From Bradyrhizobium sp. CIAT3101 (GTDB taxonomy: Bacteria > Pseudomonadota > Alphaproteobacteria > Rhizobiales > Xanthobacteraceae): a DNA stretch of 64,000 nt. Location of the stretch: contig NZ_CP121634.1 in the NCBI RefSeq assembly GCF_029714945.1, positions 4,857,001 through 4,921,000 of the forward strand, given 5' to 3'. Every line of letters starts with the position of its first letter. Positions within the stretch are counted from its first letter, which is position 1. This document shows, in pieces, positions 50,541-54,065 of this stretch. The notes beneath the pieces are model-generated. The model did not search any database. It saw only the letters and a program-made list of their open reading frames with translations, and was not told the origin of the DNA. The position numbers and the translations under genes are program-made.

Positions 50541-51530
50541 CTACTCCTCCGGCAGCCCCAGCATCAGCCGCATGTTCTGCACGGCTGCGCCCGAGGCGCC
50601 CTTGCCGAGATTGTCCAGCCGCGCGACCAGCACCGCCTGGTGATACTTGTCGCTGGCGAAGACGTAGAGCTCGAGCATGTTGGTCTCGTTGAGCGCTTCC
50701 GGTTCGAGCCGGCCGCCCTTGCTCGCTTCATTCTGGAGCGGCATCGCCGAGACGTATTTCGAACCCGCGTAGCGCTTGGCGAGCGCGGCCTGCAGGTCGG
50801 CGCCGCTGGGCTTGCCCGGCAGCGTGTCGAGCTGGAGCGGGACCGAGACCAGCATGCCCTGCCGATAATTGCCGACCGAGGGAATGAAGATCGGCCGCCG
50901 CGTCAGGTTCGAATAGAGCTGCAGCTCCGGCAGATGCTTGTGCTCGAAGCCAAGGCCATAGAGCTCGAAGGACGGTGCGCTGCCGTCTTCAAAGCTCGCG
51001 ATCATCGACTTGCCGCCGCCGGAATAGCCGCTCACCGCGTTGACGCTGATGGGATAGTCAGGTGGCAACAGGCCGGCATCGACGATCGGCCGCAGCAGCG
51101 CGATGCCGCCGGTCGGATAGCAGCCGGGATTGGAAACTTTCTTCGCGGCCTTGATCCTGCTGGCCTGGTCCGGGGCGAGCTCCGGAAAGCCGTAGGCCCA
51201 GTCCGGCGCAACCCGGTAGGCGGTCGAGGCGTCGAGCACCTTCGGGCCCGAGGCGCCCATGCTGTCGATCAGCGCGACCGTTTCCCTGGCGGCATCATCG
51301 GGCAGGCAGAGGATGACGAGATCCACCTCCTCCATCAGCGCCTTCTTGGCCGCGGGATCCTTGCGCTTGTCGTCGGCGATGGTCTTCACCACGACGTCGT
51401 TCTGCAGCTTGAGCCGCTCATTGATGCCGAGCCCGGTCGTGCCGGAGCCGCCGTCGACGAAGACGGTGGCAGGCTTTGTCGTTGCAGCGCTGCTCGAGGC
51501 CTGTTTGGCGTCGACTTCAGAAAGACTCAT
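50541..51530 (-). CDS. argC: N-acetyl-gamma-glutamyl-phosphate reductase, type 2 (AGPR)
   Basis: A 329-residue enzyme of arginine synthesis, reducing N-acetylglutamyl phosphate to the semialdehyde. This is the short, type 2 class: [18 protein letters not shown] at about 23-40 and the catalytic Cys137 in [16 protein letters not shown] precedes the ATG. It lies 46 bases downstream of the type 1 enzyme gene on the same strand; the two are only distantly related. Having both in tandem is unusual. Either one could be specialised for another N-acyl or acyl-phosphate substrate. Confidence 0.93.
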
Positions 51531-51576: not shown

Positions 51577-52626
51577 TTATGGAAACAGCGCGATCTGCTC
51601 CAGCCCCGCGGTCTCAGGAAATCCGAACATCAGGTTCATGTTCTGGATCGCCTGACCGGCCGAACCCTTCACCAGATTGTCGAGCGTCGAAAGCACGATC
51701 GCCCGATCCTTGATGCGGTCGGCAACGACGCCGATCTGGACATAGTTGGAGCCGCGCACGTTCTGCGTCTGTGGCAGCACGCCCTTTGGGGCGACATGCA
51801 CGAACGGCTCGTTCGCGTACGCATTCTGCAGTGCCGCCCGCAAATCGTCGGGCGTTGCACCGTTGAGCTTGACGTAGGAGGTACAGAATTCGCCCCGCGC
51901 CATCGGAATCAGATGCGGCGTGAAATTCACCGTCACCGCAGAGCCCGCAGCGAGGCTGATCTCCTGCTCGATTTCAGGCGCATGCCGGTGAGTGCCGACC
52001 GAATAGGGCGACAGCCCCTCGCCCGCTTCGCTGAACAGCGTGTTCTGCTTCAGCCCGCGACCGGCTCCGGTGAGGCCCGATTTCGCGTCAATGATGATGT
52101 CATCAACGTCGATCAGCCTGGCCTTCGCCAGCGGAACCAACGCCAGCAACGCCGCGGTCGGATAACAGCCGGGACAGGCGACCAGCCGCGCCGAAGCGAT
52201 CTTCTCCCGGTAGAATTCGGTCAACCCATAGACCGCTTCACCTTGCAGTTCGAGCGCGCGGTGCTCATGGCCGTACCACTGCGCGTAGGTGTCCTTGTTG
52301 CGCAGGCGAAAATCCGCGGACATATCGAGGATCTTGATCTTCGGATTGGCCTTGAGCACGGCCGCGATGATCTCTTGCGTGGTGCCGTGCGGCAGCCCGC
52401 AGAGCACTGCGTCGAGCTTGGTCCAGTCGACCTTCTCCCACTCCACGAGCCTTGGCAGGTCGAGCATGAAGAAGTGCGGAAACACTTCACTCATGGCCTT
52501 GCCGGCATGGGTGTTGGCGGTGAGCGCGGTGATCTCGGCATTCGGGTGCCGCGCCAGCAGGCGCACCGCGTCGGCTCCGGTGTAGCCGGACGCGCCGAGA
52601 ATGCCGATCTTCTTCTTCGTGCTCAT
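51577..52626 (-). CDS. argC: N-acetyl-gamma-glutamyl-phosphate reductase, type 1 (AGPR)
   Basis: A 349-residue type 1 enzyme. The NADP motif is KIGILGASGYTGADAVRLL; the catalytic Cys is about residue 154 in VACPGCYPTAALLAL; TPHLIPMARG is the substrate-binding block. The ATG at 52626 overlaps the paiB stop by one base (TGATG), so translation is coupled. A GTG at 52629 is an alternative start. It lies in a transcript that begins with the Arg-rich leader peptide at 53486, which suits control by arginine supply. Confidence 0.95.
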   Translation of the reverse strand: MSTKKKIGILGASGYTGADAVRLLARHPNAEITALTANTHAGKAMSEVFPHFFMLDLPRLVEWEKVDWTKLDAVLCGLPHGTTQEIIAAVLKANPKIKILDMSADFRLRNKDTYAQWYGHEHRALELQGEAVYGLTEFYREKIASARLVACPGCYPTAALLALVPLAKARLIDVDDIIIDAKSGLTGAGRGLKQNTLFSEAGEGLSPYSVGTHRHAPEIEQEISLAAGSAVTVNFTPHLIPMARGEFCTSYVKLNGATPDDLRAALQNAYANEPFVHVAPKGVLPQTQNVRGSNYVQIGVVADRIKDRAIVLSTLDNLVKGSAGQAIQNMNLMFGFPETAGLEQIALFP

Positions 52627-53309
52627 CACACGCCCCCTTCAGGCGCAAGCGCTTGTTGTGCTTGTATCGCATCTGTTGCGAAGGCCAACGGTCTCGCTTC
52701 GCGCATCAGGCTTGCGATCGCGCGCGAGTCCGCATCCGCCTGCGAGCCCAGCGCATCGGCGATCGCCATATAGTCGGCATCGGACTTGTGCTGGTTGAGC
52801 TTGAAGCTGCCTTCGACCTCTTCGACCGTCATCACCAGACCCACGATCCCCTTCTTCATCGTCTCGAGCCGGCCCGCCGTCATCTTGGCCGACGTCCACG
52901 GCTTCTTTGGCAGCAGCCAGTTCTCGAAGATGTCGCTGAGCGTGTCGATCTGCAGCGCCAACTCATCGTCCGACAACAGCCTGACAGCTCCGCTCAAATG
53001 CACCGACTGGTAGAGCCAGGTCGGCACCTGATCCGGCGAGACGTACCAGTCGGGCGATACGTAGGCATCGGGGCCGTTGACCGCGAGCAGCCAGGACGTC
53101 GCCCCATCCGCAAGCTTTACCAGCGGATTGTGACGGGCGACATGAAAGGCGGCCTGCGGCGTGCCGTCGGCGGAATAGGTCAGATAGAACGGCAGCGGCG
53201 ACGCGATCGGCTTATGGCCATCGAAGGCGCAGATGGTGCCGAAACCGCGCTCGCCTGCGAATTTCAGGCTCGCGGCGCGGTCCGGCTTGAAAAAGGGTGG
53301 CGTGTACAT
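52626..53309 (-). CDS. PaiB-like FMN-binding protein / negative regulator
   Basis: A 227-residue protein of the PaiB/FMN-binding split-barrel family: MYTPPFFKPDRAASLKFAGERGFGTICAFDG at the N-terminus, ASPLPFYLTY, FHVARHNPLVKLADG, and KGIVGLVMTVEEVEGSFKLNQHKSDAD near the C-terminus. Relatives bind flavin; B. subtilis PaiB was described as a regulator acting with the acetyltransferase PaiA. It is first in the operon with the two argC genes; AGGAG lies before the ATG. Its role next to arginine genes is not established. Confidence 0.9.
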   Translation of the reverse strand: MYTPPFFKPDRAASLKFAGERGFGTICAFDGHKPIASPLPFYLTYSADGTPQAAFHVARHNPLVKLADGATSWLLAVNGPDAYVSPDWYVSPDQVPTWLYQSVHLSGAVRLLSDDELALQIDTLSDIFENWLLPKKPWTSAKMTAGRLETMKKGIVGLVMTVEEVEGSFKLNQHKSDADYMAIADALGSQADADSRAIASLMREARPLAFATDAIQAQQALAPEGGV

Positions 53310-53374
53310 CGTGGTCTCCTGCTGGGCCTCCTTGCGGGCCGCCGGATCAGATCGCGCTGACAGGAGAGAGAATG

Positions 53375-53394
53375 CCGCGGATCGGATCCAGCGG
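53375..53394 (-). other. Hairpin between the Arg leader and paiB
   Basis: CCGC, a bulged T, GGAT, a CCG loop, then ATCC and GCGG form a stem of about 8 bp on the minus-strand transcript, just after the leader stop. There is no T-run, so a simple terminator is unlikely. It could be an alternative fold of an attenuator or mask paiB translation. Confidence 0.35.
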
Positions 53395-53408
53395 CAAAGA
53401 CGATGATC

Positions 53409-53486
53409 TCAAACGCGATCGACCGCCCAAACCGCTAAAGAGCGGCGGCGGCGACGGGCGAACAGGATGGTCGCGGCGTTGATCAT
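53409..53486 (-). CDS. Candidate arginine-rich leader peptide of the paiB-argC-argC operon
   Basis: A 25-residue frame beginning MINAATILFA, with five consecutive arginines at residues 11-15 (CGT then four CGC) and ending in a TGA at 53411-53409. It lies 99 bases upstream of paiB. A promoter (TTGACG, 17 bases, TATAGC) is positioned so that transcription should begin at or just before the ATG, giving a leaderless mRNA; no Shine-Dalgarno is present. A CCGCT-CTTT-AGCGG hairpin (53432-53445) overlaps the last Arg codons. This is the layout of an amino-acid attenuator; function is inferred. Confidence 0.6.
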   Translation of the reverse strand: MINAATILFARRRRRSLAVWAVDRV

Positions 53487-53494
53487 GGCGCGCG

Positions 53495-53523
53495 GCTATA
53501 GGGCGAGATGCGGTTTCCGTCAA
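53495..53523 (-). promoter_or_regulatory. Housekeeping-type promoter of the leader peptide/paiB-argC operon
   Basis: On the minus strand, -35 TTGACG (53523-53518) and -10 TATAGC (53500-53495) are separated by exactly 17 bases. The leader ATG (53486) begins 8 bases after the -10, the usual place of the transcription start. It lies directly after the dedA stop at 53535. Confidence 0.65.
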
Positions 53524-53534
53524 GGTTCGCGGCG

Positions 53535-54065
53535 TCAGATCACCCGCCAGAGCCATTCCATGATCTTCGCGATCACGTCGCCGAACAGCAGGAGTGCCGC
53601 CGACCAGACCAGCGCCGAGACGAAATTGGCGGCCTGGAAGCTCCAGTACGGCATTTCGAAAATGCCGGCGGCAAGCGGCACGGAGGCGCGCAAGGGGCCG
53701 AAGAAGCGGCCGATGAAGATGCTGGGCACGCCCCAGGTGCGTACGAAGGCCTCGCCCTTGGGCAGAAGTTCCGGATAGCGCGAGAGCGGCCACATCTGTG
53801 CGACCCGCTCCTTGTAACGAAAACCGAACCAGTAGGAGACCCAGTCGCCCAGCGCGGCACCAATGCCTCCGGCGATCCAGACCGGATAAAAGCTGATGCC
53901 GCTCACCCCGATCAGGGCGCCGATGGCGACCAGCGCGCCCCAGGCCGGGATCAGCAGCGAGATGAAGGCCAGCGATTCCCCGAACGCCAGCAGGAACACG
54001 ATCGGAGCAGCCCAAGCCTGGTGATGGCGCACGAAATCGGCCAGTGCGTGCGCGTACTGCTCCAT
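53535..54065 (-). CDS. DedA family membrane protein
   Basis: A 176-residue inner-membrane protein with about five hydrophobic segments. The DedA/VTT signature FIGRFFGPLRASVPLAAG is at about 117-134, preceded by GAALGDWVSYWFGFRY. DedA proteins are lipid scramblases or flippases needed for envelope integrity. It is divergent from parE. Confidence 0.92.
   Translation of the reverse strand: MEQYAHALADFVRHHQAWAAPIVFLLAFGESLAFISLLIPAWGALVAIGALIGVSGISFYPVWIAGGIGAALGDWVSYWFGFRYKERVAQMWPLSRYPELLPKGEAFVRTWGVPSIFIGRFFGPLRASVPLAAGIFEMPYWSFQAANFVSALVWSAALLLFGDVIAKIMEWLWRVI

Follow-up and report, generated by a model that had tools for sequence, protein, structure and literature searches.

The classical trp, his, phe and thr attenuators of proteobacteria combine three mutually exclusive RNA pairings with a stalled ribosome. 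For arginine genes, the textbook mode of control is repression by ArgR. Arginine-linked control of arginine genes is also found in the arginine T-box of Firmicutes, which binds tRNA directly, and in the fungal arginine attenuator peptide, which stalls the eukaryotic ribosome by its own sequence. In rhizobia, the trpL RNA (rnTrpL) starts at the AUG of a short open reading frame (ORF) with consecutive codons for the sensed amino acid, and its attenuator, which chooses between an antiterminator and a terminator, occurs in Bradyrhizobium too, where the peptide peTrpL is MSTAVAPARLWWRTS (PMC7298713).

In the Salmonella speF leader, consecutive Arg codons of orf34 sense arginine, and the leader controls ornithine decarboxylase via Rho, an RNase G-sensitive structure and masking of the ribosome-binding site (PMC6386406). 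The Arg codons of the S. aureus rbfL leader peptide, the rare AGA and AGG, also sense arginine, with translational occlusion of the ribosome-binding site of a biofilm regulator as the outcome (PMC13009471). A passage of PMC1262725 assigns His, Thr and Phe to attenuators and Tyr and Arg to T-boxes, and so leaves arginine outside the pathways it gives as attenuator-controlled. The matches listed on arginine attenuation in rhizobia, alphaproteobacteria or argC (titles, starts of abstracts and passages, with most subscription journals, preprints and supplements outside the scope) describe no attenuator of arginine synthesis, and the main text of the start-site map PMC4842269 has no occurrence of argC, arginine, attenuat- or leader peptide.

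The locus described here lies on the minus strand of the window (the whole 64,000-nt stretch of Bradyrhizobium DNA that was analysed, from a 9.37-Mb genome in a single contig). Very probably it is a leaderless attenuator of transcription, ribosome-mediated and responsive to arginine, with argC as its target (in this genome paiB-argC-argC). Its closest relative in form is the leaderless trpL, as the relevant passages of PMC7298713 and PMC10117765 describe it; the argC leader likewise has consecutive codons for the sensed amino acid, a predicted choice between antiterminator and terminator, and a predicted start at the AUG. Unlike trpL, it is proposed to sense arginine, it targets argC, its peptide is longer, and it carries an extra segment, E, past the terminator. 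With the classical attenuators it shares three mutually exclusive pairings, as computed, but its ORF lacks a Shine-Dalgarno site. The speF and rbfL leaders use Arg codons to sense arginine, as is proposed here; unlike speF, the argC leader would act on arginine synthesis, and through an intrinsic-type terminator. The T-box and the fungal peptide would have arginine-linked control in common with it, and their modes of sensing differ.

Layout of the leader

Read on the minus strand, positions 53523-53495 give TTGACG, a 17-nt spacer and TATAGC, and an ATG follows at 53486, 8 bases past the -10 box. The first-pass annotation had claimed this promoter, a 25-codon frame with Arg at residues 11-15, a CCGCT/AGCGG hairpin over the last Arg codons, a second hairpin before paiB, and paiB followed by two arginine-synthesis reductase genes. 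All of these are present: the Arg codons are 53456-53442, the first hairpin spans about 53445-53432, the second is 53395-53374 with a pyrimidine tract after it, and the genes are identified by matches to PF04299, TIGR01850 and TIGR01851. The parts are as follows.

53518..53523, minus strand: -35 box TTGACG (sequence reading; 17-nt spacer in 70 of 74 parsed family leaders)
53495..53500, minus strand: -10 box TATAGC, its end 8 nt before the ATG (sequence reading; 6-8 nt in 71 of 74 parsed leaders)
53409..53486, minus strand: leader ORF, 25 codons plus stop, MINAATILFARRRRRSLAVWAVDRV (sequence reading and family comparison)
53442..53456, minus strand: segment A, five Arg codons CGT CGC CGC CGC CGC, residues 11-15, proposed stall site (Arg cluster in all family leaders)
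53423..53439, minus strand: segment B, TTTAGCGGTTTGGGCGG, which may pair with the Arg codons or with C (predicted from comparison and folding)
53385..53395, minus strand: segment C, GCCGCTGGATC, common to the antiterminator B:C and the terminator C:D (predicted from comparison and folding)
53374..53383, minus strand: segment D, GATCCGCGGC, 3' arm of the terminator hairpin (predicted from comparison and folding)
53363..53373, minus strand: pyrimidine tract ATTCTCTCTCC, 3' of the second hairpin (sequence reading)
53338..53348, minus strand: segment E, GATCCGGCGGC, complementary to C, past the terminator (predicted pairing)
53315..53321, minus strand: probable Shine-Dalgarno site CAGGAGA of paiB (sequence reading)
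52626..53309, minus strand: paiB-like gene, PF04299 FMN_bind_2, 136.5 bits, an optional passenger between leader and argC (profile match)
51577..52629, minus strand: argC, N-acetyl-gamma-glutamyl-phosphate reductase, TIGR01850, 417.7 bits (profile match over cut-off)
50541..51530, minus strand: second argC type, TIGR01851 argC_other, 410.8 bits (profile match over cut-off)

If the promoter is right, the 6-8 nt between the end of the -10 box and the AUG are too few to hold a Shine-Dalgarno site in front of the leader ORF. A strict sigma-70 consensus scan of the window returned 0 promoters; the scan requires a T in the last position, where TATAGC has a C. A terminator scan of the window likewise returned 0 terminators, and the tail of the second hairpin, which is pyrimidine-rich and partly U-rich, is too weak for that scan. 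The hairpin itself is kept among relatives, with a U-richer tail in the relative L025 (TTTTTTCTTTTT) and better tails in other genera (CTTGTTTC or CTTTTTCC); clear U runs occur in L025 and in the family f20. As a single sequence, the window leader folds moderately better than its shuffles (z -2.17, with 6 of 200 shuffles equally good). No Rfam model matched the window at gathering scores, so that no T-box or riboswitch model fits, and a search of 53200-53700 at E<=5 gave only an unrelated snoRNA match far below the gathering score. The case for a leader is built on comparing genomes.

Conservation of the leader and its link to argC

The leader DNA was matched in 36 of 36 same-genus genomes searched, its own included (E 2.3e-11 or better); across 24 genomes of other families, any matches in the same search were short ones (E 0.001-0.01). 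Each of the 30 same-genus leaders that were read preserves the promoter, the frame, the Arg run and the hairpins, while the promoter spacer and the sequence 5' of the -35 box are far more variable. The first-pass annotation had staked its proposal on close relatives keeping the frame and the Arg run, and both persist throughout these 30. The run is RRRRR in 18 and RRRR in 11 of 29 aligned leaders; L014, left out of that alignment and read separately, has RRRRR.

A covariance model, R1, was built from the 30 leaders and used with a threshold of E<=0.01 for matches in the family. It found one match each in 76 of 198 family genomes, representing 20 of 47 genera, and none in the other 122. In one of the latter, G081, a scan showed no leader before argC, but the same scan missed a real leader elsewhere (L183). 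All 76 family leaders have a short ATG-started ORF with an Arg cluster, and at least three Arg are consecutive in 72. The longest run among 75 parsed leaders is two in 4, three in 21, four in 41 and five in 9; the remaining leader, L097, has RRRR. Clusters are interrupted in L073, L076, L103 and L106. The remainder of the peptide varies among the 76 leaders while the Arg cluster stays, and ORF length is 21-25 amino acids in all 75 parsed leaders. The codons of the run are CGC (244) and CGT (36) only, which means that its letters could also be held by pairing with B.

Behind the leader, tblastn with the proteins of the window located argC in 75 of the 76 cases, the exception (L058) having paiB alone within the DNA fetched. 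The next gene is paiB in 53 leaders and argC directly, at +174 to +256, in 21; L061 and L063 have argC at +636 and no match to paiB. Because 21 leaders directly precede argC without paiB, the leader belongs to argC, and because argC lies downstream almost everywhere and paiB is next in only 53, argC is the constant partner and paiB optional. This refines the earlier description of a leader of paiB-argC-argC. By the better tblastn match (a typing made by tblastn, not with HMMs), the downstream argC is of the first type of the window in some leaders and of the second type in others; identity to the first type is 57-92% outside its own genome. The downstream gene thus makes the amino acid that the leader is proposed to sense, and in the window both argC profiles score over their cut-offs. 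Promoter spacing, ORF, conserved Arg run and downstream argC are in this sense shown, at the level of sequence and comparison.

Competing hairpins and the proposed mechanism

Pairing statistics were taken from a MAFFT alignment of 44 diverse leaders, drawn from 49 that could be anchored among the 76; L041, L062, L067, L070 and L076 were left out for wrong anchors. An R1-fitted alignment of divergent leaders (A2) was poor and was set aside. In the 44 leaders, the helices A:B plus C:D are paired in 90.6% of cells, vs 35-54% when slid, and B:C is paired in 86.7%, vs 32-59% when slid. One B:C pair occurs as CG, GC, UA and UG, and B:C has 15 double-change cells, vs 6.8 +/- 2.4 in shuffles, a number that 2 of 500 shuffles reach. 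Counts of pairs in which both partners change were equalled by 60 of 500 shuffles for A:B plus C:D and by 131 of 500 for B:C. In a shuffle test on 53 leader rows (4 unanchorable leaders left out, duplicates collapsed), run length was equalled by 446 and total pairs by 13 of 5000 shuffles. Covariation beyond relatedness is therefore modest, and because related sequences inflate covariation tests, more weight is placed on the folding test.

In the folding test, all RNA up to the leading edge of the ribosome was masked and the pairing of C was scored in 74 of the 76 leaders (the start of L097 lay outside the scanned range, and L101 has no C anchor). When the ribosome was placed on the first Arg of the run, 51 of 74 leaders had C paired upstream and 12 had it paired with D; the counts were 40 and 19 of 74 for the second Arg, and 12 and 37 of 70 for the third. 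A ribosome at the stop codon gives C:D in 72 of 74 and upstream pairing in none; without a ribosome, C pairs upstream in 20 of 74 and with D in 51. When the linker was shuffled (20 rounds) with the ribosome on the first Arg, 9-21 leaders of 74 paired C upstream and 41-57 formed C:D. The window leader forms a 7-9-bp B:C helix when masked at R11, R12 or R13, and C:D when masked at R14, R15 or the stop codon, or when unmasked. Antiterminator and terminator are thus mutually exclusive in the computed folds and are switched by the position of the ribosome. Upstream pairing of C has dropped to 12 of 70 leaders by the third Arg, and the model therefore requires the ribosome to stall on the earliest codons of the run; on that condition, the predicted folding follows the logic of a trp attenuator. 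By the same folds, the second hairpin of the first-pass annotation is the putative terminator, and the piece missing from that description is the predicted B:C antiterminator.

From these features we infer the exact start of transcription, the stalling, the termination and the response to arginine. RNA polymerase would start at the AUG or within about two bases of it, and a ribosome would load directly on the leader AUG. When Arg-tRNA is scarce, the ribosome would stall on the first Arg codons of the run, leaving B free to pair with C, so that the C:D terminator could not form and the operon would be transcribed. When arginine is plentiful, the ribosome would reach the stop codon and cover B, C:D would form, and transcription would end after about 115-125 nt. 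The idea of a leaderless, attenuating arginine leader peptide, as put forward in the first reading of this DNA, gains support from the comparison (an Arg cluster in 76 of 76 family leaders, a spacing of 6-8 nt in 71 of 74) and from the predicted folds.

Several other readings have to be weighed against an arginine attenuator. The leader ORF might sense general translation or the supply of ribosomes, perhaps through Rho, rather than arginine specifically; the Sinorhizobium DUF1127 attenuation, which depends on an upstream ORF and responds to inhibition of translation, is a precedent in the part of PMC12218461 that bears on it, and the U tract of the window is weak. Such a general sensor is nonetheless improbable, given an Arg cluster that persists while the rest of the peptide varies, the near-constant argC downstream, and the U-rich terminators of some relatives. 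One could also take the locus for a structured RNA that binds a protein or ligand, with the Arg run a by-product of CGC repeats that pair with B. The exclusive use of CGC and CGT in 75 family leaders is what such repeats would give, but the frame, with its narrow range of lengths, survives sequence turnover, f20 leaders keep TRRRR as CGA CGC CGC CGT with a different downstream hairpin, and there is no relevant Rfam match, all of which make this reading highly improbable.

Segment E raises a further alternative, namely that the main role of the leader is to control translation of the first gene, or to act in trans as an sRNA through E, with termination secondary. E lies 20-39 nt after D and can pair with C by at least 7 bases in 49 of 75 leaders, vs 117 of 1500 shuffles, and S. 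meliloti rnTrpL acts in trans according to the passages of PMC7298713. On the other side, 26 of the 75 leaders have no such helix, E in the window lies upstream of the Shine-Dalgarno site and not in it, and C:D with the pyrimidine or U tract behind it looks like a terminator; we regard this alternative as very improbable. A released short RNA would itself encode the Arg-rich peptide, as predicted. Within the attenuator model, a secondary role for E is conceivable, if rather doubtful: E might refold the read-through mRNA, or make it a target of the released short RNA, in which case the product of the attenuator would exert feedback in trans on the operon or other arginine genes.

Leaders in other families and arginine control

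An order-wide search gave a match in 70 of 397 genomes, and 28 loci were read. Outside the family, six of these are Arg leaders before argC: L124-L127 and L129 in f20, and L128 in f2. In f20, argC has in front of it the leaders MNMIATSTRRRRLILR, MNTISTSTRRRSLILR and MITAATSTRRRILIQR, which finish with a hairpin and at least six T; one such end, GCCGCGCTCCACAGCGCGGCTTTTTTG, has the form of an intrinsic terminator. The f2 leader MSLAPHTIVRRRCRLPARMR has the same hairpin-plus-T form, and the argC there is closer to the second type of the window. Several of the other loci read are aromatic-rich leaders or chance-like. A class-wide search with a model R2 returned the own genome and one further match, L368, which forms the beginning of a longer reading frame, looks like chance and was rejected.

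Upstream regions of argC were also inspected directly, 100 of them, drawn from 131 genomes of the order with an argC match, with a scan in two forms. A leader is present in three (L183, L190 and L236). The first form of the scan found L236 and a hit at -833 in L183, which is not counted; the second found L190, L236 and a hit at -583 in L178, which is taken as chance. The leader of L183 was seen by eye and missed by both forms, so that absence of a leader from the remaining argC regions is not firm. The leader is thus common in its own family; it also occurs in f20 and, scattered, in some genomes elsewhere.

Some observations were made alongside these searches. L236 (f52) has an Arg-rich interrupted leader, MTTSCSIRRDTCRRPRGAR, with a TTGACA promoter and a terminator, before an argC-like gene. 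In 10 of 14 printed regions, argC follows an apparent rpsI, recognised by eye from its C-terminal end, and the Arg leaders seen among the order-wide argC loci sit where argC is elsewhere than after rpsI; the leader may have arisen as argC moved out of the ribosomal operon. L131 (f2), an R2 match, has an Arg-rich short frame, MMRRFRDREYAPRRGRRLVRAVCV, with no match to argC or paiB in the locus, and may be chance. In the same genome as the window, about 9.6 kb to its left (L137, 4847245-4847415, plus strand), a leaderless-type leader, MITVATSFYWYFSYDSSLAAGGSRSI, is followed by GCCGCCAGACCTGGCGGCTTTTTT and by a gene recognised by eye as DAHP synthase; this leader, noted also at L138 and L140, is probably an aromatic amino-acid attenuator. 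L130, L133 (f6) and L134 (f44) have leaders rich in aromatic residues, MINTATFFWYFSYPLPAEAIARV and MMTKPTIAVVSYWYPSS, with terminators. The record JAUEPE010000003.1 (L261), labelled Frankia sp. RB7, carries the leader pattern, which makes the label or the assembly doubtful.

None of 41 genomes, 25 from the own genus (own genome included) and 16 from other families of the order, has an ArgR match (PF01316) over the cut-off in a profile search, vs 8 of 14 control genomes; the genome G010 has one match, below the cut-off. In the part of PMC5343134 that treats the distribution of ArgR, regulons are listed for six taxa, and the repressor is described as highly conserved in many gammaproteobacterial groups and absent in other classes.

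A genus in which 0 of 25 genomes reach the ArgR cut-off, and 20 of 47 genera of its family, thus appear to use a trp-type attenuator for arginine whose translation begins with no ribosome-binding site. The leader persists across changes in the genes that follow it, with paiB in or out and argC of either type. Arginine regulation in Bradyrhizobium and its relatives thereby becomes directly testable. If the model is true, classical attenuation extends to a pathway to which the passage of PMC1262725 gives only T-boxes.
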